Assembly (NCBI GenBank): GCA_024743175.1
Contig: JANSXA010000006.1
Coordinates: 124,001 to 188,000 of the forward strand
Length of the DNA stretch: 64,000 nucleotides
Source of the DNA: Pseudomonadaceae bacterium
Lineage (GTDB): Bacteria; Pseudomonadota; Gammaproteobacteria; Pseudomonadales; Azotimanducaceae
Reading direction: 5' to 3'
Shown: one piece after another, positions 3,333 to 61,726 of the stretch
How positions within the stretch are numbered: position 1 is the stretch's first letter
Layout of the letters: every line of letters starts with the position of its first letter
The notes under the pieces: model-generated
The model's input: the letters and a program-made list of their open reading frames with translations, nothing else
What the model was told of the DNA's origin: nothing
Databases searched by the model: none
Translations under genes and position numbers: made by a program

Positions 3333-4865
3333 TTAAAGCGGGATGTTGCCGTGTTTACGCCAGGGGTTTTCCAGCTCTTTGTCGCGTAACATCGCAAATG
3401 AGCGGCACACCCGCTCGCGGGTTTCGCTGGGTACCACAACATCGTCAATATAACCGCGACTGGCGGCGACAAACGGATTGGCAAACAGGTCCTGGTACTC
3501 TTCGGTACGCTTTGCAATACCTTCATTATCACCGAGTTCCTTGCGGAAAATAATTTCAACCGCACCTTTAGCACCCATCACTGCAATTTCAGCACTCGGC
3601 CAGGCCAGATTGACGTCGCCGCGCAGGTGTTTGGAAGCCATGACGTCGTAAGCCCCGCCGTAGGCTTTACGCGTGATGAGGGTAACTTTTGGCACCGTGC
3701 ATTCGGCATAGGCGTACAGGAGCTTGGCGCCGTTTTTGATGATGCCGCCGTATTCCTGCACCGTGCCTGGCATGAACCCGGGGACGTCAACCAGAGTGAG
3801 GATGGGGATATTGAACGCATCGCAGAAGCGTACAAAACGCGCGCCTTTTTTCGAGGAGTCGATATCCAGACAACCAGCAAGCACCATCGGCTGATTGGCG
3901 ACCACGCCAATGGTTGTACCCTGTAACCGGATGAAGCCGATCACAATGTTTCGAGCGTATTCAGGCTGTACTTCAAAGAAATCGTGTTCGTCTGCGATTT
4001 TGTGGATGACTTCGATGATGTCATAAGGTTTTGAGTTATCTGCGGGAACCAGCGTATTCAGCGAAGGCTCTTCGCGTGAGGCTGGGTCTTCGGTGGGCCA
4101 GCGTGGCGGCTTTTCGCGGTTGCTTGCAGGCAGAAAGTCGAAGAAGCGCCGGGTTCGCAGTAATGCTTCCAGATCGTTTTCGAAGGATAAATCCGCCACC
4201 CCTGATTTACGCGTATGAATGCTGGCACCGCCAAGTTCTTCCGGCGTAACCACCTCATGGGTAACGGTTTTAACCACATCAGGCCCGGTGACAAACATGT
4301 AAGCGGAATCTTCAACCATGAAGATGAAGTCTGTCATTGCGGGAGAGTAAACCGCGCCGCCGGCGCAAGGACCCATGATCAGAGACAGTTGGGGGATGAC
4401 GCCAGAGGCAAGTACGTTACGCTGGAAAATTTCCGCGTAGCCGCCCAGCGATGCCACCCCTTCCTGGATGCGGGCGCCACCTGAGTCATTCAGGCCAATA
4501 ACCGGCGCGCCGACTTTCATCGCCTGGTCCATCACCTTGCAGATTTTTTCCGCGTGAGCTTCGGACAGCGCGCCACCAAAGACGGTGAAATCCTGACTGT
4601 AAACAAACACCAGGCGTCCGTTGATGGTGCCGTAGCCGGTGACAACACCGTCTCCCGGAATTTTCTGATCCTGCATGCCAAAATCGTGAGAGCGGTGTTC
4701 GACATACTTGTCCCACTCTTCAAAGGAGTTTTCGTCCAGCAGCACGGAAATGCGCTCGCGAGCGGTGAGCTTGCCTTTCAGATGTTGTTGCTTGATGCGG
4801 TGTTCACCACCACCGAGCATGGCGGCATCGTGTTTTTCTTTCAGTCGGGCGATGATGTCTTGCAT
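3333..4865 (-). CDS. pccB: Propionyl-CoA carboxylase beta subunit (carboxyltransferase)
   Basis: 510 residues, full length for the family. Two crotonase-fold carboxyltransferase halves are present, with the oxyanion-forming glycine motifs [11 protein letters not shown] in the N half and [10 protein letters not shown] in the C half. It transfers the carboxyl group from biotin on PccA to propionyl-CoA. The end matches PccB ([14 protein letters not shown], typical of the family). It is upstream of pccA on the same strand with a 21-nt gap and downstream of a molybdoenzyme gene. Confidence 0.94.
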
Positions 4866-30748: not shown

Positions 30749-31728
30749 CCGTTCTGTTTGGCATCTTTCTTCTGACTTTGCTGGTCATCTCGGCGATTGG
30801 CATTGTCCGTGCACGAAATCTGTTTGTCGCCGTCATGTTGACAGGTATTTTTTCGCTGCTGATGGCGGCGAATTTCTTCATTCTGGATGCGGCAGATGTT
30901 GCCTTAACCGAGGCTGCTGTTGGCGCGGGTGTATCTACTGTTCTGTTATTGGGTGCGCTGGCGCTGATACCGCCAAACGAAAGTCGTTCGAAACGTGTGC
31001 GTTGGCTTGTGGTCTCAGTCGTTACGCTGACGGCGATTACCCTCGGCTATGCAACGTTTGAGAACCCGCGTCTGGGAGACCCGGAAGCACCGGTGCATCA
31101 ACATGTAGCGCCCTGGTATCTGGAACAGACTCCGGTTCTGATTGACATACCCAATGTGGTCACTGCCGTGCTGGGTTCCTACCGTGGATATGACACTCTT
31201 GGAGAAGTTCTGGTTGTTCTCACCGCAGGTATCGGGGTGCTTTTCCTGCTTGGCCTGCCTGGTGCGTTTGGTGGCCGAAAAACTGAAGACGTGGCCCGTG
31301 GTCGTACTTATCTCAGCCATCACCTTGTGCCACAGGTTGTTGGCCAGTTGCTGATGCCGTTCATCATCCTGTTTGCCTTGTACGTGCAATTCCATGGGGA
31401 ATATGGTCCGGGTGGCGGTTTTCAGGCTGGCGCAATTTTCGCCGCAGCACTGATTCTGTTTGCCTTGATTCAGGGTGAACGGGAGGCGCTTACGCTGATA
31501 CCGCCGCGAGTGCTTGTGGTGCTGATGGCAACCGGTGCGTTGCTGTACGGTAGCGTAGGTGTGTTAACAATGTTGTTAGGTGCTAACTTTCTTGAGTATG
31601 GGGTTTTGTCGAGTGATCCCGTGAAAGGCCAGCAATGGGGGATTATTCTCATTGAGCTAGGTGTTGGTATTTCTGTGGCATCGGTTCTGCTGGCGATTTA
31701 TCACGCTTTTGCATCGCGGGGGCGATAA
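30745..31728 (+). CDS. mrpB: DUF4040 plus MrpB-domain fusion subunit
   Basis: 327 residues. Residues 1-75 match the DUF4040 region normally found in the C-terminal part of MrpA (ADVALTEAAVGAGVSTVLLLGALALI). Residues about 180-325 are an MnhB/MrpB domain with the hallmark FHGEYGPGGGFQAGAIFA. Thus one polypeptide carries the MrpA C-terminal and MrpB functions while the large NuoL-like MrpA N-terminal part is absent and seems replaced by separate D-type subunits downstream. GTG start in the mrpG overlap. Confidence 0.88.
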   Translation: MTVLFGIFLLTLLVISAIGIVRARNLFVAVMLTGIFSLLMAANFFILDAADVALTEAAVGAGVSTVLLLGALALIPPNESRSKRVRWLVVSVVTLTAITLGYATFENPRLGDPEAPVHQHVAPWYLEQTPVLIDIPNVVTAVLGSYRGYDTLGEVLVVLTAGIGVLFLLGLPGAFGGRKTEDVARGRTYLSHHLVPQVVGQLLMPFIILFALYVQFHGEYGPGGGFQAGAIFAAALILFALIQGEREALTLIPPRVLVVLMATGALLYGSVGVLTMLLGANFLEYGVLSSDPVKGQQWGIILIELGVGISVASVLLAIYHAFASRGR

Positions 31729-37147: not shown

Positions 37148-37223
37148 GCGGGTGTAGCTCAGTTGGTAGAGCGCAACCTTGCCAAGGTTGAGGTCACGAG
37201 TTCGAGCCTCGTTACCCGCTCCA
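37148..37223 (+). tRNA. tRNA-Gly (anticodon GCC)
   Basis: 76 nt including an encoded CCA. Acceptor GCGGGTG pairs with TACCCGC; D stem GCTC...GAGC; anticodon loop CTTGCCAA with GCC; T loop TTCGAGC. It is the last host gene before the integrase (integrase stop 32 nt downstream, opposite strand), so its 3' end is the likely attachment site of the prophage. Confidence 0.95.
37186..37223 (+). other. Probable prophage attL core (3' half of tRNA-Gly)
   Basis: Phages with tyrosine integrases usually recombine in the anticodon-to-3'-end part of a tRNA gene and carry a copy of it, so an identical stretch should reappear at the right end beyond 64,000. The exact core cannot be delimited because attR is outside the window. 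Confidence 0.5.
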
Positions 37224-37254: not shown

Positions 37255-38328
37255 TCATGCTGATTCGCCGCCATGTTCAATTTTCGGCCCTGATGTCATT
37301 TCGCGGCTGAAACTGGATGCAGACTGGGCAGTTGCACGCAATCGCTCCGGGTTGAAGTGCGTATAGATCTGCACTGACTCCACTTTTGACCAGCCTCCCA
37401 ACTCCATGACTTCAAACATGCTGAAGCCTTGCAGGAACAGCTTTGTCGCAAACGTATGCCTGAATACGTGAGCTGTGACATGCTTCTTCACTCCGGCAGC
37501 GTCAGCGGCTTTCTGGAGCGTTCTGGGGTTGACCTTATCGTATGGCTTGCCGCGGTAGGTGAGCACGTTGGTGGTGTGCTTACCGATGTTCCTGCGCACA
37601 ACTTCCATGGCGGCATCGGTCAAAGGGATCGCAATATGCCGATTGCCTTTCTGATTGTGCTTCTCAATCCAGACACACTTTCGCTGGACGTCGACGTCGG
37701 TCCACTTCAGGTGCGTGATGTTGCGCATGCGTAGACCGCAGTCAACCGCCAGGATCACGAAGTCAATTAAGTGCTTTGTCCGCGGTGACTTCTCGAGCTC
37801 AGCGACCAGGGCATCAATTTCGTCCTGTTCTAACCAGACCGGCTTACGCTCGGGTACCTGGAAAAACTCTATCGCCGGTAATCGATCGAGACGCTTTGCC
37901 TTCCTCGCTTTGTTTAGTACGGCACGGAAAGTAGTGAGCGTTCGGTTGGCTGTGGAGGGTGCGTATCCGTCAGCTACCAAAGGCAGAACCTCAGTAGAGA
38001 TAACTTCGTCAGTGATGCTGTTGATGTCTGCGTACTGCCCAAGAACCGCATTAAGCAGCTTCATGCGGCGCACGTCGTGTTCGTATGAAGGTTTACCCTT
38101 CTGAGTAATCAGGTAGGCGACTACTGCTTCTTTCCATGAATACGGTGGACGCTCGCCGAGTTGCTGCTCCCGCCAGATTTCGTTGAGGCGTTTCGCGTAC
38201 CACTCTTTGGCTTGGTGGTGGTCTCGAGTCCGAGAAGACTCTCGTATTCGGCGTCGACGTCCCGTCTTCGGGTCAGTGACCCACTCACAGAGTGACCAGA
38301 TGCCGTTTGCTCTTCTTTCGAGTCCCAT
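37255..38328 (-). CDS. int: Phage tyrosine-recombinase integrase
   Basis: 357 residues from ATG 38328 (MGLERRANGIWSL), chosen because GGGGGAG lies 3 nt upstream; a 16-residue longer frame lacks such a signal. N-terminal DNA-binding part, SAM-like core-binding domain (about 60-150), then the catalytic domain with Arg in VDCGLRMRNITHLKW, HxxR in AHVFRHTFAT, the following GGWSK-His region (QIYTHF) and the Tyr nucleophile in IYTHFNPE. It integrates and, with Xis, excises the prophage at tRNA-Gly. The 5' 208 nt lie inside the excisionase gene in another frame. Confidence 0.95.
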   Translation of the reverse strand: MGLERRANGIWSLCEWVTDPKTGRRRRIRESSRTRDHHQAKEWYAKRLNEIWREQQLGERPPYSWKEAVVAYLITQKGKPSYEHDVRRMKLLNAVLGQYADINSITDEVISTEVLPLVADGYAPSTANRTLTTFRAVLNKARKAKRLDRLPAIEFFQVPERKPVWLEQDEIDALVAELEKSPRTKHLIDFVILAVDCGLRMRNITHLKWTDVDVQRKCVWIEKHNQKGNRHIAIPLTDAAMEVVRRNIGKHTTNVLTYRGKPYDKVNPRTLQKAADAAGVKKHVTAHVFRHTFATKLFLQGFSMFEVMELGGWSKVESVQIYTHFNPERLRATAQSASSFSREMTSGPKIEHGGESA

Positions 38329-38486
38329 TGCTCCCCCTGTAAAAATCTGTCTACCGCAGACTGTGTTATCCGCCACTTATTGCCGCATTTTTGCGCAGGA
38401 ATCAAGCCACTGGCCAGATACCGGCGAACGGTCACCTGATGCAACTTCAGATATTCAGCTGTTTCCTGGACGGTTAAGGCTGCCAT
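38121..38486 (-). CDS. xis: Excisionase-like helix-turn-helix protein
   Basis: 121 residues from ATG 38486 (MAALTVQETAEYLKLHQVTV). Residues 1-50 are a MerR-like HTH_17/excisionase domain: TVQETAEYLKLHQVTVRRYLASGLIPAQKCGNKWRITQSAVDRFL. The remaining 70 residues are Ser/Lys/Arg-rich, and the last 208 nt overlap int in another frame, so the true protein may be just the HTH plus a basic tail. It starts one base after the stop of the 86-residue gene upstream. Expected role: directing Int toward excision. Confidence 0.82.
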   Translation of the reverse strand: MAALTVQETAEYLKLHQVTVRRYLASGLIPAQKCGNKWRITQSAVDRFLQGEQWDSKEEQTASGHSVSGSLTRRRDVDAEYESLLGLETTTKPKSGTRNASTKSGGSSNSASVHRIHGKKQ

Positions 38487-45834: not shown

Positions 45835-46617
45835 TTAAAAGAAACTCTCGAACTTGTTTACGGTGATTCTGACGTGGTTAAGCATGAGGCGCAAAACATA
45901 GTCTGCGGAGCGATGGCTCTCAGCACCGCTGATGCCGAGACCTACGCTCATTCTAAATTGAATTTCTTGACGCTCTTTAATTTTAAGGGCTTCGCTGTGA
46001 AGAGTTGCGCCTTCGATAAGCTCAAAGAAGGGGTTCGCGGGACGGTACCACAAATCTTTTATCCCGGGGGGCTCCATATTATTGCTCGCCGCAAGTTCGT
46101 TAATTATGGGAGCAAAGTCTATGCCGTGATTCACACCAGCAATAGGGATCAACTGTCGGTGTTTGTCGAGTTTTGCGAGTTTGTTGAGTCTGGTGATCTG
46201 TTCTCCCTTCCCGCCGGGATATACCTCGGTTGCGAGCAATGCTTGTTTGATAGCGGCGGTTGCGCTTGGGACTGCGGAATCGACACGATTTGCGAAATCT
46301 ATGGCGTTTCCACCAATCGGAAAATAGATACTGTTACCTGGAGAAGGGTTGCCACAAATAATCTCGAGTTGGAAAGCGAGTTGATCGAGCGCACCTCTGA
46401 GTTGATTTACAACGTCGGATGCGATCACAGCAAGCTGATCTGGGACCTGCGGAACGTTCCTGAGTTTGTAACTACGCCACCCGGTTTCCAAATTTTCTTC
46501 TTTGTAGATCTGCATACCACTAGAACTCATCCAGTTGGCCAACGCTTTACGGAGTTCAGTGATGTGTTGTTCAGCCCGATCGATCTTCGCGATGATTCCA
46601 GAAAAGCTGACGGTCAT
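45835..46617 (-). CDS. Uncharacterised 260-residue protein (cargo gene 2)
   Basis: Start at ATG 46617 (MTVSFSGIIAKIDRAEQHITELRKAL). Soluble; helical N-terminus, then VPDQLAVIASDVVNQLRGALDQLAFQLEIICGN and YFPIGGNAIDFANRV, later LNKLAKLDKHRQLIPIAGVN. The segment around RGALDQLAF and the LDKHR box recur in a widespread family of bacterial proteins without assigned function, as far as I can recall. The antisense open frame (45448-46623) is a shadow. Orientation against pR and the shared upstream element suggest independently expressed cargo. Confidence 0.7.
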   Translation of the reverse strand: MTVSFSGIIAKIDRAEQHITELRKALANWMSSSGMQIYKEENLETGWRSYKLRNVPQVPDQLAVIASDVVNQLRGALDQLAFQLEIICGNPSPGNSIYFPIGGNAIDFANRVDSAVPSATAAIKQALLATEVYPGGKGEQITRLNKLAKLDKHRQLIPIAGVNHGIDFAPIINELAASNNMEPPGIKDLWYRPANPFFELIEGATLHSEALKIKERQEIQFRMSVGLGISGAESHRSADYVLRLMLNHVRITVNKFESFF

Positions 46618-46677
46618 GAATAGTATTCCATCTGTTGTTAGCACTTTGGATGGTACCACCGGATTCGCTCAGGCGAA
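46618..46677 (-). promoter_or_regulatory. Upstream element B of cargo gene 2, with palindrome
   Basis: Minus strand: TTCGC-CTGA-GCGAA palindrome (46677-46664), then GGTACCATCC, AGTGCTAACAACA and GGAAT before the ATG. It is a diverged copy of element A; TACCATC, GCTA, ACAACA and GGAAT are conserved in order. Confidence 0.55.
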
Positions 46678-46739
46678 GACTATGCAGCATGGGCCCGCGG
46701 CTATTCCGTCTGCTGGTGGGGAAGGGGTCTACTTTCAAT

Positions 46740-46814
46740 CGCACGGTAGAGCAGCGGCAGCTCGCCTGGCTCATAACCAGGAGGTCGGGAGTTCAAGTCT
46801 CCCCCGTGCTACCA
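46740..46814 (+). tRNA. Phage-encoded tRNA with CAT anticodon, initiator-like
   Basis: 75 nt including encoded CCA. Acceptor CGCACGG / CCGTGCT pairs at six positions but leaves C1 opposite U72, the unpaired end that marks bacterial initiator tRNAs. D stem GAGC/GCTC gives A11:U24, another initiator feature. Anticodon stem CCTGG/CCAGG has two of the three initiator G-C pairs (29:41 is U-A). Anticodon CAT at 46772-46774; T loop TTCAAGT. Elongator Met or lysidine-Ile tRNAs would pair at 1:72. It lies in the cargo island. Confidence 0.85.
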
Positions 46815-46853
46815 AGCATATCCTTGAAAGGGCTATCAAAGAGGGCGATACGC

Positions 46854-47102
46854 ATGCATTTAGTTAAGCCCGCCAATAAGCAAGTCAGCCTGCTCCAATG
46901 CGTAGGGGCAGCTGGCGACTCGAAGCTAATACCCAAGAAAGGTCGACAACAAGACATCCTGCGCTGCCGTAATGGTGTATTGCTGGCGTTGTCTGAGTCG
47001 ACCGCTATCACTGTTGGCTCCATACCAAACGTAAACCCGATGAGAGTAGATCAACCACCTGCAGGTATGGGCGGGTGGTCTCTAATCCTTGTGCACAACT
47101 AA
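46854..47102 (+). CDS. Possible 82-residue phage protein
   Basis: ATG 46854 with GAGGG 8 nt upstream, 40 nt after the tRNA. Basic protein (MHLVKPANKQVSLLQCVGAAGD...), with ITVGSIPNVNPMRVDQPPAGMGGW at the end. No family recognised; moderate doubt that it is coding. Confidence 0.4.
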   Translation: MHLVKPANKQVSLLQCVGAAGDSKLIPKKGRQQDILRCRNGVLLALSESTAITVGSIPNVNPMRVDQPPAGMGGWSLILVHN

Positions 47103-47117
47103 CTGGGTAATTCCGAA

Positions 47118-47381
47118 ATGGATGTCGACGAAACCTCAAACGAGACCGAAATTATTGATCCGGCGCTGCGGCGTCCTGGCTATGTGTACTTCAAATTCGA
47201 AGTCGTAAGTGATGATCCAGAGAAGAAAGCTGTGCTCTACGACATCATGACCAGCTATGGAGCAGTTACTACCTGGTTACCCAGATCCGCGCGACAAAAC
47301 CAAATTGTCGACAATGTGTTTGGTGGTGAGGTCCTGGAGATCCGGTATTTGTTCGCCAAGAAAAAGGGACTAGTGAAATGA
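47118..47381 (+). CDS. Phage protein of unknown function, 87 residues
   Basis: MDVDETSNETEIIDPALRRPGYVYFKFEVVSDDPEKKAVLYDIMTSYGAVTTWLP... looks like a small alpha/beta domain with a regular strand-helix pattern. Its stop is 3 nt from the end of the convergent DUF4145 gene. Not recognised. Confidence 0.55.
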   Translation: MDVDETSNETEIIDPALRRPGYVYFKFEVVSDDPEKKAVLYDIMTSYGAVTTWLPRSARQNQIVDNVFGGEVLEIRYLFAKKKGLVK

Positions 47382-48091: not shown

Positions 48092-48302
48092 GTCTAGATC
48101 CCGCTTCCAAAAACGATTGAATGAAATCTTACAAGATCCTAACGCAAGCTGTGTGAGTGAATTGTGGGATGAATATAGAGCGATTACCGATCAACACGAA
48201 ATAGACGTCTTCGTTGGTCTCCTCATCGGAGAGTTGGTCACAACCCGGGTTCAGCACAAGCATCGAAACAACTCTCAGAGAAGGAGCTCAGTAGGTGACT
48301 AA
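48090..48302 (+). CDS. Phage protein of unknown function, 70 residues
   Basis: MSRSRFQKRLNEILQDPNASCVSELWDEYRAITDQHEIDVFVGLLIGELVTTRV..., helical. GGTGAG 8 nt before the ATG. Start codon overlaps that of the divergent DUF4145 gene (shared CATG). Its end overlaps the replication gene start by 8 nt. Confidence 0.6.
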   Translation: MSRSRFQKRLNEILQDPNASCVSELWDEYRAITDQHEIDVFVGLLIGELVTTRVQHKHRNNSQRRSSVGD

Positions 48303-49197
48303 TCCCTGGTTTCGACTCTACTCGAAGATCATCACAGACCCTAAAGTGGAGTTCCTTTCATTCGAAGATCAGCGCCACTTTGTGTGGTTGCTTTGCCTCA
48401 AAAATGAGGGGTACCTGGACGAAGAATTCCCGTCCAAAAATATGCGCAACAGGATGATTGCTCGCAAGCTCGGATTGCAGGGTGAAGCGTTCGAAAATGC
48501 CAAGCAGCGATTGATGGAAATGGAGCTAATAAATAAGGATTGGCAGCCAATTTCCTGGGATTCTTTGCAGTTTAAGTCGGACTCTTCCAAGGAGCGTGTT
48601 CGTAAGTATCGGGAAAGAAAGAAGAAATCTGATGTGAAACGGTCGAGTAACGTTACAGTAACGGCTCAAGATACAGATACAGAAGAAGATACAGATACAG
48701 AACAAGAGAGAGAGACGCGCGGGCGCGCGTATCCCCCTCCCGATTTTGAGCCTCAGGGACTGACTCGGAAGAAGCTTGAATCCAAGTTTCCAGACACGGA
48801 TCCGGAACGGCTGATCGAGCACTTCAAATCGATAGAATTCCGCATCCCCAAATCCTGGGATGATCGGTTTTGGTCACATGCTGTGGAAAGCGCTCACAAG
48901 TTCAGGCGAGTGCCACCCGGGAGCAGCTCGCCAAATCGTGAGCCGCTCGAATGCCGGCCTGAGTTCAGATCGCTCGAGGAAATCGCCAATCGAATTCTCA
49001 GATCGCGTCTCGCAGGTGAGCCGATTCATGTATCCCCGGATCCCCAGTACGAGTTGCTAAGTGAGTTCGTGGATCGAGCGCTTGCGATCGCCAGCAGTGA
49101 AAACCCAAACAATCCCGAGACGCTGGCGTTCAGCTCGCTGCGTCAGATCCTGCTGCGCAAGTACGACGAGCTCACTGCAGCGGAGGCCATGGTTTAA
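48295..49197 (+). CDS. Phage replication initiation protein (lambda O-like architecture)
   Basis: 300 residues from GTG 48295, AAGGAG upstream. Residues 1-105 form a winged-helix-type domain common in phage replisome-organiser proteins (WFRLYSKIITDPKVEFLSFEDQRHFVWLLCLKNEGYLDE...), followed by a basic linker (KERVRKYRERKKKS), a repetitive acidic linker TDTEEDTDTE, and a C-terminal domain that may bind helicase or loader. The linker DNA holds direct repeats and a GC palindrome, a possible origin. Confidence 0.78.
   Translation: MTNPWFRLYSKIITDPKVEFLSFEDQRHFVWLLCLKNEGYLDEEFPSKNMRNRMIARKLGLQGEAFENAKQRLMEMELINKDWQPISWDSLQFKSDSSKERVRKYRERKKKSDVKRSSNVTVTAQDTDTEEDTDTEQERETRGRAYPPPDFEPQGLTRKKLESKFPDTDPERLIEHFKSIEFRIPKSWDDRFWSHAVESAHKFRRVPPGSSSPNREPLECRPEFRSLEEIANRILRSRLAGEPIHVSPDPQYELLSEFVDRALAIASSENPNNPETLAFSSLRQILLRKYDELTAAEAMV
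48669..48730 (+). repeat. Direct repeats plus GC palindrome inside the replication gene (candidate origin)
   Basis: AGATACAGATACAGAA occurs at 48669-48684 and 48687-48702 (18-bp period; four GATACAG units), followed by a GA-rich run and ACGCGC-GGGC-GCGCGT (48715-48730). The position between the two domains of the initiator gene is that of lambda ori. Origin function is inferred. Confidence 0.45.
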
Positions 49198-54380: not shown

Positions 54381-54847
54381 TGCCAGACCGTATTGATTTT
54401 AACGGTGGTGCATCGCGCTTCCGGGTCCGAGTCAACGGTGTAGTCCGCTCTTCTCATACCACGGAACGCGAGGCCGCACAGAACGCGGCCAATTTCGCAA
54501 TGGCAGCCCCGCATGCAGAGGTGAATTACTACCATGACTACGAGGTCGGTGTGAGTTTTCTCAGAGTAACCAGTGTTCCGGAAGCCTCGGCTGTCGTTCA
54601 AGTTTTTGATGCTCAGGGTAATCCCGCTGGGTATGGTCCTGCCGATGATCCAGCTGGTGTTTTCTTCGGCCGTGGTGATCTACAGCAGGGAGATATCTGG
54701 TCGGTAGTGAGCGTTGGCCCTGGTCAAACGGTAACGCCACTCGAAGGCGGTAGCTTCCTGGTTAACACATCTGGTTCGTTTGATTGGGAACTGCGCCGTT
54801 CTGGCGTGGTGGTGGATTCGGGTACCAAGACGGTGACGGTTACATGA
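54380..54847 (+). CDS. Phage protein of unknown function, 155 residues
   Basis: MPDRIDFNGGASRFRVRVNGVVRSSHTTEREAAQNAANFAMAAPHAEVNYYHDYEVGV is followed by a beta-rich C-terminal domain (SVGPGQTVTPLEGGSFLVNTSGSFDWELRRSGVVVDSGTKTVTV). Starts with TAATG overlap, ends with ATGA overlap into the next gene. Probably part of an appendage or surface unit with the next two genes. Confidence 0.62.
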   Translation: MPDRIDFNGGASRFRVRVNGVVRSSHTTEREAAQNAANFAMAAPHAEVNYYHDYEVGVSFLRVTSVPEASAVVQVFDAQGNPAGYGPADDPAGVFFGRGDLQQGDIWSVVSVGPGQTVTPLEGGSFLVNTSGSFDWELRRSGVVVDSGTKTVTVT

Positions 54848-56244
54848 GAAAGTCCATGGAAAGGTTTGTTTTACTCTTAGCACTGTTGCTCTGCGCGCCA
54901 GCATTCGCCGCAGATTGTGCAGCGACTAATGCCACCGGTGGTGACACGCGCGTATTCCAGCCGTGTACCAAGAACGATATCCCAACGATTAGTGGTACCG
55001 AAGATGTCACTGCCGTTGACGTCTGGGGTCCATATCACATTGCTTGTGGACCCGGTGGTGCATCACCAAGCTGGTCTGGCACATTGCCTACCGGTTTGTC
55101 GGTCAATACGTCCACTGGGAGAATTACGGGTACGCCAACTGCGGACGGCTCTGTCGCCTCAAGCCTGACGTGCACAAATTCTGTTGGCTCAGAGACGATC
55201 AGCTTCACTTGGAACATTGCAGCGGCACCTGGTGGTGGTGAGCCCTATGATCTGACCGCAGGTGGGTCCAGAACTGTTCCGTTTTCGTATGAATGGCCAG
55301 CTGAACCGGTCACAACGAGTACAGCCAGTGTTTCATCAGCCTCAGCCTTTAATGCTGCTGCGGCAATTGACGGCACTGAGATAACTGTCACTCAGTCATT
55401 TTCTGGCAACATCAACGTCACGGCAGATGATATCGATGTGGTGATGGCAAATAACATCACGATCTCTGGCCGTTTGACGATTAACTCGTTTAGTGCCTCA
55501 GGCCGCCTCAATCGCATTCGTTTCACCGGTGGCAACTTTGCTGCTGGCAGTATTCTTATCCATCCAGTCAATGACTTGATGCTTAAGGATGTCTACTTCG
55601 ATACTGACTCTAACTTAGCCAGCGAAGGTCTCAACGACTTCCGAGGCAACTCTGCCAACTCAGGGATAGCTGGCTGGGATCGCATCGCCCTGGTCAATAC
55701 GACCATCAATCACGTCAATGGCAGTAGCACTGGCGACTACGCGTTTTATGCAGCGTCGAGAAACAACTCGACGAATCTGATTTTCGCCAACGTTAAGCTG
55801 CGTGCACAAGGCCAGGTGCACCGAGTCATTCAGCTGTCTAAATACATCATCGTCGATTCGACGTTTAATGATGATGGTGGTGCATCAAGTGCTTTCCGTA
55901 TACATGGCGATGGTGGTACGGCAACGAATGAAGTCTACATGGCTGACTCCATGGTTCGGGGCACGATGAAAATCGACGGTACTGCAGGCTCTCAAGGTCC
56001 GCAGATTGCCAACGGCGTGTTTGAGCGAGTTGACCGATACGCTAATGATGGCTTTTGGTGGTATTCAGAAGCCTTGGCTTCTGGCAACCAGGCCACCGTC
56101 AACGATTCACCGATTTATTATGTTGGTGGTGATGGTGTGAGCGAGGTTGGGCTTGGATCCGGCATTACTGGTAGTAACAACATCCGTCAGCCTTGGGACG
56201 GCTCTACAGTGCCTGATTACAGCGGAGTTGGCGCAATCCGCTAA
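54844..56244 (+). CDS. Secreted beta-rich protein: signal peptide, putative-Ig domain, beta-helix-like body
   Basis: 466 residues. Signal peptide (MERFVLLLALLLCAPAFA, likely cleaved before ADC), then a He_PIG-type domain (SGTLPTGLSVNTSTGRITGTPTADGSVASSLTCTNSVGSETISFTW), then repeated Asn-rich strands (NNITISGRLTINSFSASGRLNRIRFTGGNF..., MLKDVYFDTDSN, LIFANVKLRAQ) as in right-handed beta-helices. A signal peptide on a late phage gene is odd for a virion part; it may be exported by the lysogen or be misassigned as a fibre. TGA/ATG overlaps at both ends. Confidence 0.7.
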   Translation: MRKSMERFVLLLALLLCAPAFAADCAATNATGGDTRVFQPCTKNDIPTISGTEDVTAVDVWGPYHIACGPGGASPSWSGTLPTGLSVNTSTGRITGTPTADGSVASSLTCTNSVGSETISFTWNIAAAPGGGEPYDLTAGGSRTVPFSYEWPAEPVTTSTASVSSASAFNAAAAIDGTEITVTQSFSGNINVTADDIDVVMANNITISGRLTINSFSASGRLNRIRFTGGNFAAGSILIHPVNDLMLKDVYFDTDSNLASEGLNDFRGNSANSGIAGWDRIALVNTTINHVNGSSTGDYAFYAASRNNSTNLIFANVKLRAQGQVHRVIQLSKYIIVDSTFNDDGGASSAFRIHGDGGTATNEVYMADSMVRGTMKIDGTAGSQGPQIANGVFERVDRYANDGFWWYSEALASGNQATVNDSPIYYVGGDGVSEVGLGSGITGSNNIRQPWDGSTVPDYSGVGAIR

Positions 56245-59286: not shown

Positions 59287-59814
59287 ATGAACGTCATTGA
59301 GTTAGATGCAAAAGCCACGCAGCGGAATTTCGCTGCCATGGTTGGTGTTTCGCAGAATGCGGTTCAAAAGTTGGTGGCGGCCGATGTGTTGGAAAAGCGT
59401 GGAACGTACCGAGAATGGCTGCTCAGCTATTGCGCTCGCCAGCGTGCTGAAGCAGGTGGTCGCGCCGGTGAAGACCAGGTCGCACTAACGCAGGCCCGAA
59501 CGCGTGAAGCCCTTGCGAAAGCGGAGGCTCAGGAAATCGTGAACCTGGAAAAGTCCAAGGTCCTGATTGAAGTAGAGGACGTCTCGCCATTGATGGTGGC
59601 GTTGTTTGAAAACCATAGAGAGCAGCTGATTAACGAGGTTGATAAAGCAATTGAGCGGATCGAATCGAAGTACAAGGTCAAACTCGAAGACGCTGACCTT
59701 CTTGCCAGAATCCGTATTGCCCTCCAATCTTCAGTTGGTCACGCGGGCGAACTTAGCAAAGCTATTAGAGCTCACGTCCAAAAGTCTAACGCCAGTCGAG
59801 CCGCTCTCGACTAG
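59287..59814 (+). CDS. Terminase small subunit (Nu1-like)
   Basis: 175 residues. N-terminal winged-helix (NFAAMVGVSQNAVQKLVAADVLEKRGTYREWLLSYCARQRAEAGG), then a coiled coil (LTQARTREALAKAEAQEIVNLEKSKVLIEVEDV) and a C-terminal helical part that would contact the large subunit. This is the Nu1 layout. It recognises the packaging site just upstream. Confidence 0.87.
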   Translation: MNVIELDAKATQRNFAAMVGVSQNAVQKLVAADVLEKRGTYREWLLSYCARQRAEAGGRAGEDQVALTQARTREALAKAEAQEIVNLEKSKVLIEVEDVSPLMVALFENHREQLINEVDKAIERIESKYKVKLEDADLLARIRIALQSSVGHAGELSKAIRAHVQKSNASRAALD

Positions 59815-61726
59815 AGAATGGTCAGAAAAATACCTCAAGCTGCCTGAAGAAAATGCAGATGTTCCAGGCAGTTACAGCTTGGACTATGCGCCATACCTGA
59901 TCGGCATTATGTACGCGGCGGATGATCCTAAGATTGCCGAGATCGCCTGCATGAAAGCTGCGCAGGTAGCGTGGACTACGTGCTTGATAGCGATGATCGG
60001 TCGCCGAATTGATAATACACCCATGCCTATCGTTGGGATGTTTGCAGCGGAGGGTGCAGCCAAAGACTTTAACGATGAGAAGTTCACTCCCATTGTTGAA
60101 GCTACGCCGAAGTTATCCGCCCGGATCGATGTCAGCACCTCACGCAAGAGTGGCAACCGCGCACTGTTCAAGAAATTTGAAGGTGGTTTCTTAAAGCTGG
60201 TGACTTCGAACTCCGCACGGTCTGTTAAGTCAACGCCGGCTCGCTTTGTGTTTGTGGAAGAGCCAGACGATGCGCAAGGTAACGTTGCGCAACAAGGTGA
60301 TTCAGTATCGCTACTGTGGGAACGCGGGAAGCGAATGCGCAATGTCAAACGAGTGATTGGCGGTACGCCTTCTGTCAAAGGGTTGTCGCGAATCGAAGAG
60401 CACATCGATCAATCGGACAAGCGAGTGCTGCCCATTGTCTGTGGCGGTGGTGATGGATGTGGTGATGCGCATGTTCTTGATTGGGAGAACGTCAGCTGGG
60501 CGACCAGCGAAACGGAAAACCATTCTGTGTACGGAAACGCTATCCCGGAGACTGCGTTTTATGCATGCCCGTATTGTGGTTTGGTCTGGGATGACTACCG
60601 TCGAAAAGAGAACATACGAGAAACGGTCTATTCCGCACTCGAAGCCGGTGATGAAAATGGCGGTTGGGTAGCAACACAAAAATTCTATGGGGTCGCCGGG
60701 TTCACGGAGCTCAACGAACTCTATTCGTGTCTGCCAGGTGCTGGTATGGCCGAGCTCGTTACGGATTACTTAAACGCCCAGCATGCTGCGGAAAACGGAG
60801 ACCAGACAAAAGTCATCGTCTTCCAAAACTCGAAGCTCGGTCGGCCCTACGAGTACAAAGACGAACAAGCGGACGCCGATACCCTTAGAGAGATTCACGG
60901 TGCATACGAGTACCAGGACTACGCGGAGATGGTTTGCCCAACTGAAGGTTTACTGGTAACCGCGGGCATCGACGTGCAACGAAACCGCTTAGCTGTAGTG
61001 CTTCGGGCGTACGGCGTGGCTGAGGAATCCTGGTTGCTGTACTGGGGTGAAATGTACTCGGAAAATGATCCGATCAGTAAGAACGATGCTGTTCTGGGAT
61101 CGCTTGATACCCTACTTTTTTCTCCAATCAAGCGAACCGACGGATCCACAATCTATTGTGAGTCCGTAACCATTGACAGTTCTGATGGTATGACCAGCGA
61201 CACCGTTTATCACTGGGTGCGTAAGCACAACAAGAAGGGTAAAGCCTTGGTAATGGCCGGAAAAGGTTCAAGTTCTCTGCAGGACGTAGAGATCTTTACC
61301 CAACCCAAGCAGCCAGTTGATCACAAGAATCCGAAGCGACGCACCAAAGCAGATAAGTATGGTTTGCGGCCGTACATCATTGGTACTAACAAGGCGAAAG
61401 ATTTGATCAGCGGTCGAATCAAACAGCCCGGTTCTGGCGAAGGCCGTATGCACGTTTATCCGGGTGTTAGGTCAGATTATTACGAACAGGTCACATCTGA
61501 GGTTAAGGCGCCACATCCAAAGAATCCGAAGCGTCGCGTATACCAACCGAAAATTGGAGTGCGCAATGAAGGGTTGGACTGCGAGGTTTACGCACTGCAT
61601 GCAGCGCGCGCTAAGCGTGTACATCTCATGTCACCTGCAGATTGGGAAGCGCGGCGGGCAGCTATAGGTAAACCGCCCATGGGTAAGCGTTCGATTAAAC
61701 AAGAAAGACGGAAAGGAAATTGGTAA
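59735..61726 (+). CDS. Terminase large subunit, GpA family
   Basis: 663 residues from TTG 59735; another TTG at 59639 would add 32 residues that lie inside Nu1. No ATG start fits. LSTREWSEKYLKLPEENADVPGSYSLDYAPYLIGIMYAADDP begins the family region. The Walker-A-like segment reads MKAAQVAWTT: the early Lys is kept as in lambda gpA, but the GK(S/T) part is lost. Walker B region FVFVEEPDD. The nuclease part starts VTAGIDVQRNRLAVVLRAYG. A Cys pair (ACPYCGLVWDD) adds a zinc knuckle. It cuts and translocates DNA into the prohead. Confidence 0.92.
   Translation: MVTRANLAKLLELTSKSLTPVEPLSTREWSEKYLKLPEENADVPGSYSLDYAPYLIGIMYAADDPKIAEIACMKAAQVAWTTCLIAMIGRRIDNTPMPIVGMFAAEGAAKDFNDEKFTPIVEATPKLSARIDVSTSRKSGNRALFKKFEGGFLKLVTSNSARSVKSTPARFVFVEEPDDAQGNVAQQGDSVSLLWERGKRMRNVKRVIGGTPSVKGLSRIEEHIDQSDKRVLPIVCGGGDGCGDAHVLDWENVSWATSETENHSVYGNAIPETAFYACPYCGLVWDDYRRKENIRETVYSALEAGDENGGWVATQKFYGVAGFTELNELYSCLPGAGMAELVTDYLNAQHAAENGDQTKVIVFQNSKLGRPYEYKDEQADADTLREIHGAYEYQDYAEMVCPTEGLLVTAGIDVQRNRLAVVLRAYGVAEESWLLYWGEMYSENDPISKNDAVLGSLDTLLFSPIKRTDGSTIYCESVTIDSSDGMTSDTVYHWVRKHNKKGKALVMAGKGSSSLQDVEIFTQPKQPVDHKNPKRRTKADKYGLRPYIIGTNKAKDLISGRIKQPGSGEGRMHVYPGVRSDYYEQVTSEVKAPHPKNPKRRVYQPKIGVRNEGLDCEVYALHAARAKRVHLMSPADWEARRAAIGKPPMGKRSIKQERRKGNW

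Follow-up and report, generated by a model that had tools for sequence, protein, structure and literature searches.

The prophage and the tRNA-Met locus

Two tRNA genes were called by ARAGORN in the analysed DNA (a stretch of 64,000 nucleotides, referred to as the window): tRNA-Gly at 37148-37223 and tRNA-Met(CAT) at exactly 46740-46814, both on the forward strand. The former is the integration site of a prophage of about 45.6 kb, within which the latter is located. The features considered here are (window coordinates):

37148..37223, + strand: tRNA-Gly(GCC), the integration site (ARAGORN); 37201-37222 are the left copy of a 22-base repeat
37255..38376, - strand: prophage integrase (PHROG 1, E 1e-52), adjoining tRNA-Gly
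45835..46659, - strand: divergent open frame left of tRNA-Met, with no family match; its start is uncertain and an overlapping + strand frame is present
46740..46814, + strand: initiator-type tRNA-Met(CAU), with CCA encoded, C1·U72 unpaired, A11:U24 and a 7-nt D-loop
46765..46781, + strand: its anticodon arm CCTGG-CTCATAA-CCAGG (positions 27-43, read from the sequence), with U29:A41
46854..47102, + strand: small open frame right of tRNA-Met, the first rightward gene, with no family match
48295..49197, + strand: DnaD-like/replication initiation protein of the rightward arm (PHROG 10469, 7e-14)
59639..61726, + strand: terminase large subunit (PHROG 15, 1e-152)

The 22 bases of the tRNA-Gly 3' end occur twice in the 4.72-Mb draft genome (with up to 2 mismatches allowed), at C18:161201-161222 (window 37201-37222) and at C18:206830-206851, which lies beyond the window. 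A prophage location had been proposed in an earlier reading of this DNA made from the letters alone (the sequence-only reading), and it is supported by the integrase beside tRNA-Gly and by this repeat about 45.6 kb downstream. The tRNA-Met gene lies between the repeats, at 9.5 kb from the left copy and 36 kb from the right, and is thus within the phage genome and not in the host flank; it was the only tRNA detected in this interval, where 150 of 162 candidates were scored. It sits in a gap between the leftward frame at 45835-46659 and small rightward frames without a known family. The rightward prophage genes include those for the DnaD-like protein, a Holliday junction resolvase, an amidase, terminase and portal proteins, and the leftward ones include genes for an exonuclease and a ParB-like protein. 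A host tRNA left at the phage end (an attB relic) was considered and ruled out, given this inner position, the unlikeness of the tRNA-Met to the host initiator and the derivation of the repeat from tRNA-Gly.

The stretch 46400-47200 showed neither a sigma-70-like promoter nor a terminator consensus (0.5 and 0.8 expected by chance), and a PADLOC search of 10 prophage proteins gave weak matches alone (22 bits at best). The two proteins flanking tRNA-Met had no relatives in viral contigs, the DnaD-like protein was found only in the host itself among 206 family genomes, and when the 6 kb around the tRNA were compared with phages, the matches of the best 20 of 23 records were confined to the tRNA. 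Seven of the 8 viral records with the nearest terminases carried no tRNA in the stored sequence (some are short fragments), and the eighth (G208) had three near one end. Upstream of the packaging genes, at 54784-56244, the prophage encodes a protein with a putative Ig domain (He_PIG).

Structure and class of the tRNA

The tRNA-Met scored 61 bits with the Rfam tRNA model (gathering score 29). In its lowest-energy RNA structure it forms the complete cloverleaf, bases 1 and 72 being unpaired, and the z-score of this fold is modest (-2.05; 8 of 200 shuffles folded equally well). As a control for spurious calls, 20 shuffled 64-kb windows yielded 1 tRNA call in total, a tRNA-Ile. Every stem is intact. 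The acceptor elements are C1·U72, G2:C71, C3:G70, A4:U69 and A73, with CCA encoded; the D arm has A11:U24 and the D-loop AGCGGCA, and the anticodon stem CCUGG/CCAGG (U29:A41, G30:C40 and G31:C39) carries the loop CUCAUAA. The CAT anticodon, unpaired 1:72, A11:U24 and two of the three initiator G-C pairs had all been read correctly in the sequence-only reading.

Covariance models were trained on tRNAs from the class to which the host belongs (14 of 22 distinct initiators, 14 of 15 elongator tRNAs-Met and 10 of 12 tRNAs-Ile2), the elongator and Ile2 training tRNAs being separated by their acceptor start and one odd tRNA (L264) being left out. The initiator model gave the window tRNA 77.1 bits, the elongator-Met model 63.0 and the tRNA-Ile2 model 59.6, i.e. 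with margins of 14.1 and 17.5 bits, respectively. The initiator-like identity proposed earlier is thereby borne out; a confident assignment to elongator Met or tRNA-Ile2, named there as the result that would speak against it, was not obtained. The three host CAT tRNAs were sorted correctly by these models, the best score leading by at least about 22 bits (initiator/elongator/Ile2 scores of 105.6/65.8/56.2 for the host initiator, 62.8/105.5/81.6 for the elongator and 57.4/78.9/100.8 for the Ile2-type tRNA), and 15 of the 16 phage tRNAs compared scored best as initiators, the remaining one, of a Cellulophaga phage (L301), being slightly better as an elongator (75.6 versus 74.8 bits).

That the gene really encodes an elongator tRNA-Met, or a tRNA-Ile2 of the lysidine type, is hardly credible. 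It has the CAT anticodon, and its 3' part (query 32-75) is 89% alike elongator tRNA-Met of genomes of the same genus; however, the scores of both alternatives are lower by the margins given above, and the comparison elongator and Ile2 tRNAs have a paired G1 and C11:G24, neither of which is present in the window tRNA. This identity was therefore rejected. A 3' part of an elongator-Met-like tRNA, with no complete tRNA in the 3-kb stretch, was also noted in another genome (G118:C13:86966-87012; L184) and is possibly an attachment-site remnant.

The identity elements of bacterial initiators include G2:C71, C3:G70 and A11:U24, which aid formylation (as described in PMC7949028), and the window tRNA matches the elements given there except at pair 29:41; two pairs of the three-G-C-pair feature (29-31:39-41) are present and 29:41 is U:A. 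Judged by its nucleotides and model scores, assignment of the tRNA to the bacterial initiator type is well supported.

The host draft genome contains one initiator (C8:125934), one elongator Met and one Ile2-type gene among 33 tRNA matches (two of which are those in the window), and the initiator pattern occurs in it at two places, the host gene and the prophage gene. The host tRNA-fMet (G000:C8:125934) shares with the window tRNA A11:U24, the unpaired 1·72, the loop CUCAUAA, G30:C40 and G31:C39, but differs in having U1·U72, G29:C41, a 9-nt D-loop and other acceptor and T stems, so that 61 of 79 aligned columns are equal. A near copy of the window tRNA was absent from the 205 other family genomes (best match of 60.8 bits versus 136 for the tRNA against itself); the 29 of these matches that were inspected are host-type initiators or elongators, one case being a partial one.

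Pair 29:41 in bacterial and viral initiators

The initiator pattern was found in 52 of 56 genomes of the class, at 56 places, with G29 at 54, A29 at 1 and U29 only in this prophage. In the phylum, it was found in 238 of 299 genomes, and among the 150 matches listed A29 occurs in 95 and G29 in 55 (initiators with another D stem are missed by these patterns, 4 of the 56 and 61 of the 299 genomes being without a match). The three-G-C feature is therefore not strict at 29:41. The pattern joining the initiator D stem to the U29:A41 arm, to which the same limit on D stems applies, was absent from all 397 other sampled phylum genomes, i.e. it was found only in this prophage among 398.

The picture in viruses is different. 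The same D-arm together with the exact anticodon arm (U29:A41) was found in 54 viral stretches of IMG/VR; this stem feature is thus present in many viral sequences and in none of the related bacteria examined, and it makes the window tRNA look viral in type. When position 29 was left open, at least 120 stretches of one viral collection matched the initiator pattern, some of them probably through host genes at provirus edges, and the view of the sequence-only reading that phage tRNAs are usually elongators understates the initiators that phages carry. From 80 loci of this open set, which probably includes such host genes, 77 tRNAs were parsed, with A:U at 29:41 in 35, G:C in 21, U:A in 20 and C:A in 1. 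The 16 phage records compared have U:A in 7, A:U in 6 and G:C in 3, a make-up that leans to the window's type since these records are 16 of 175 BLAST matches to the window tRNA.

A tRNA was called by ARAGORN in 51 of the 54 stretches (3 were without), 42 of the 51 being distinct; in 33 of the 51 cases the stored sequence, often just part of a contig, has no second tRNA. Separately, 33 of the 51 have a standard T arm suitable for parsing, and these comprise 19 acceptor types and 19 T-stem types; the other 18 were dropped by the parser for unusual T arms, and one more was dropped in the pairing count. Across the resulting 30 distinct stem sets (29 further ones and that of the window) the acceptor and T stems vary with pairing preserved. 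Acceptor pairs 2-7 were kept in 175 of 180 cases (shuffled 3' arms: mean 147.1, maximum 157) and T-stem pairs in 148 of 150 (shuffled: mean 110.2, maximum 121), so that pairing in both stems exceeds all 1000 arm shuffles; the parser took the variable-loop length with most pairs, which slightly favours pairing, and the shuffles ignore relatedness. In 21 of the 30 sets, window included, bases 1 and 72 do not form a standard pair. The constancy of the anticodon arm was fixed by the search and carries no evidence, and it is in their other stems that the viral tRNAs sharing this arm show the pattern that would be expected of real initiators under selection. As A29 is normal in other classes of the phylum, departures at position 29 are tolerated, and U29:A41 is probably likewise tolerated rather than essential to the initiator role.

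Several of the viral tRNAs are unusual in the T arm. Nine of the 51 (L104, L324, L336, L346, L348, L351, L359, L364 and L368), all of initiator type, resemble one another in that the 5' side of this arm is lengthened or interrupted (GTCATAAACGGTTC and variants). The initiator-type tRNAs of viral contigs L333 and L360 have the T loop ATCGAAG (A at 54) and L332 has AGCGAAG, where TTCRANY is usual. A54 is characteristic of initiators in archaea and eukaryotes.

The best-ranked named phage in the BLAST search with the window tRNA was Xanthomonas phage Elanor. The tRNAs of this phage and of Xanthomonas phage vB_Xar_IVIA-DoCa5 (both Mesyanzhinovviridae) equal the window tRNA in 64 of 77 and 62 of 78 columns, respectively, and share with it A11:U24 and the same 27-31/39-43 stem with U29:A41, but their genes are placed between terL and other genes before ribonucleotide reductase, and the DoCa5 tRNA differs further in C1·A72 and the loop UUCAUAA. 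Caulobacter phages CcrSC and CcrBL10 also carry an initiator with U29:A41 (noted as tRNA-fMet in GenBank); in contrast to the prophage, they have large genomes (317 and 221 kb) and several tRNAs in the stretch shown. The initiator-type genes of Elanor (ON189045.1, 4041-4116) and DoCa5 (ON932079.1, 1656-1731) are unannotated in the records, and a second, weaker tRNA match lies in Elanor at 4251-4340.

Possible roles of the phage tRNA

The reading that we prefer, with a probability of roughly 0.6, is that the gene encodes a working tRNA-fMet of a temperate phage, which would top up or replace the host initiator pool during lytic growth. After induction or infection, the tRNA would be transcribed rightward with the neighbouring phage genes and processed, charged with Met by the host MetRS and then formylated, and it carries most of the marks used by Met-tRNA formyltransferase, IF2 and the ribosomal P site. 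Once charged, it could add to or substitute for the host pool (the draft genome yielded one gene for it) and so sustain initiation under a flood of phage mRNA, or after loss of host tRNA to toxins such as VapC that target initiators. The supply of initiator tRNA sets initiation cell-wide, and its cleavage by VapC stops translation. Points counted in favour of this reading are the initiator scores, the identity elements, the single host initiator gene, the stem pairing of the viral tRNAs, the VapC matches in the family (see below) and the partial rescue of E. coli from a tRNA-fMet-cleaving VapC by extra metZWV tRNA-fMet (PMC8522696). Counted against it are the lack of a promoter or terminator consensus, of a near copy in the family and of relatives of the flanking proteins, as well as the 7 of 8 nearest-terminase viral records without a tRNA in the stored sequence and an anticodon loop equal to that of the host. 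Dosage alone and replacement after nuclease attack cannot be told apart from the present data.

The same gaps around the gene could be read as a sign of a passenger, i.e. a tRNA that was picked up, or handed down by an ancestral phage, and has persisted by chance while doing little today: the 205 other family genomes are without a near copy, no relative was found for the locus and no promoter consensus was seen. We consider this rather unlikely, as the stems are intact, CCA is encoded and the initiator marks are kept despite equality with the host initiator in just 61 of 79 columns, and as the same arm recurs in 54 viral stretches, the parsed ones with compensating changes. A more specific counter-defence role, in which the tRNA substitutes for host tRNA-fMet cut by VapC-type or other toxins and U29:A41 reduces cleavage, is a possibility that we would hold with some reserve. 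That the phage tRNA stands in for host tRNA-fMet cut by a defence nuclease, as suggested in the sequence-only reading, is plausible. A model of initiator-specific VapC gave matches above its curated cut-off in 14 of 206 family genomes, but the host's own copy is below threshold and looks incomplete. At E<=0.001, 71 of the 206 genomes match, the host among them, but this limit is loose and non-specific, 6 of 14 control genomes matching too (none above the cut-off). VapC of Shigella and Salmonella acts on the anticodon stem-loop, cutting at A38-C39 (PMC4105405), phage tRNAs have been proposed in print as nuclease-insensitive replacements (PMC10264068), and the stem of the window tRNA does depart from the host type. 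The loop at the cleavage site, however, is unchanged: CUCAUAA is also the host's loop, and the change lies in the stem at 29:41, so that the tRNA does not use the known way of resisting nucleases through the anticodon loop (a change at or near the cleavage site, of the kind discussed in PMC10264068). Moreover, phages were described as having generally avoided encoding tRNA-fMet in S. flexneri, where VapC-LT2 targets the anticodon (PMC10264068), cleavage data for U29:A41 were not found in the literature covered, and the PADLOC matches among the 10 prophage proteins scanned are weak.

The altered stem could also act on start-codon choice, because G1338 of 16S rRNA makes contact with pair 29-41, and exchange of pair 30-40 next to it lowers discrimination against CUG in E. 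coli (both PMC11497404). A different grip in the P site, helping initiation at GTG and TTG starts of the prophage, is nevertheless quite improbable. The sequence-only reading had seen unusually many such starts, and no significant excess emerged when 30 prophage and 34 host ORFs were compared using a crude ORF choice and the start with the best SD: non-ATG starts were 14/30 in the prophage and 13/34 in the host part (Fisher p 0.61), and those with an SD of 4 or more 6/13 and 4/12, respectively. TTG leaned to the prophage, both by best SD (9/30 versus 4/34, p 0.12) and by first start (11/30 versus 6/34, p 0.10), and there may be a small TTG effect in it. On the other hand, the anticodon CAU is identical to the host's, and A29 is a normal base in other classes of the phylum (95 of the 150 matches listed).

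A wider proposal, tentative and on balance unlikely, is that viruses keep an initiator tRNA lineage of their own, with an anticodon stem unlike that of cells at 29:41, a pair that G1338 grips and that falls within the target of VapC. Through this change, phage initiation might evade a check imposed by the host (cleavage by toxins or scrutiny in the P site) with the tRNA still being a good initiator; the proposal starts from the U29:A41 type being in 0 of the 397 other sampled phylum genomes and its arm in 54 viral stretches. In the mostly open-access literature covered on phage initiator tRNA, the three G-C pairs and VapC, no 29:41 difference of viral initiators is described. If functional, the viral change at this pair would offer a natural means of probing the way in which the initiator stem is read by the ribosome and by toxins.

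As for VapC in the host itself, its genome has four PIN-domain matches, one of which resembles the fMet type (89.3 bits versus the cut-off of 140, over profile positions 18-129). This VapC-like gene (G000:C7:583493-583825; L294) is nearest to the tRNA(fMet)-specific type, with the match starting at profile position 18 or 19; it looks interrupted, with the protein start appearing in another frame just upstream.

Genes for tRNA-fMet in phages and prophages, including a lone initiator in a prophage, have already been published. Among 15 Sinorhizobium meliloti phiLM21-like prophages with a single tRNA gene, this gene is called tRNA-fMet(CAU) in 4, according to the description in PMC12429752. They resemble the prophage studied here in being temperate, of about 50 kb, integrated at a tRNA gene and equipped with a lone tRNA-fMet, but have another host, and the likeness is one of description. 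An initiator in a prophage qualifies the statement, made for S. flexneri, that phages tend to avoid tRNA-fMet (PMC10264068). Because codon compensation poorly explains an initiator, a phage with a lone tRNA of this type is a clean case for asking why phages carry tRNAs at all. Another initiator-type tRNA was noted in Pseudanabaena phage Pan5 (ON968456.1, near 31589-31643; L304), where it overlaps a CDS named 'omega transcriptional repressor', possibly a mis-annotation.
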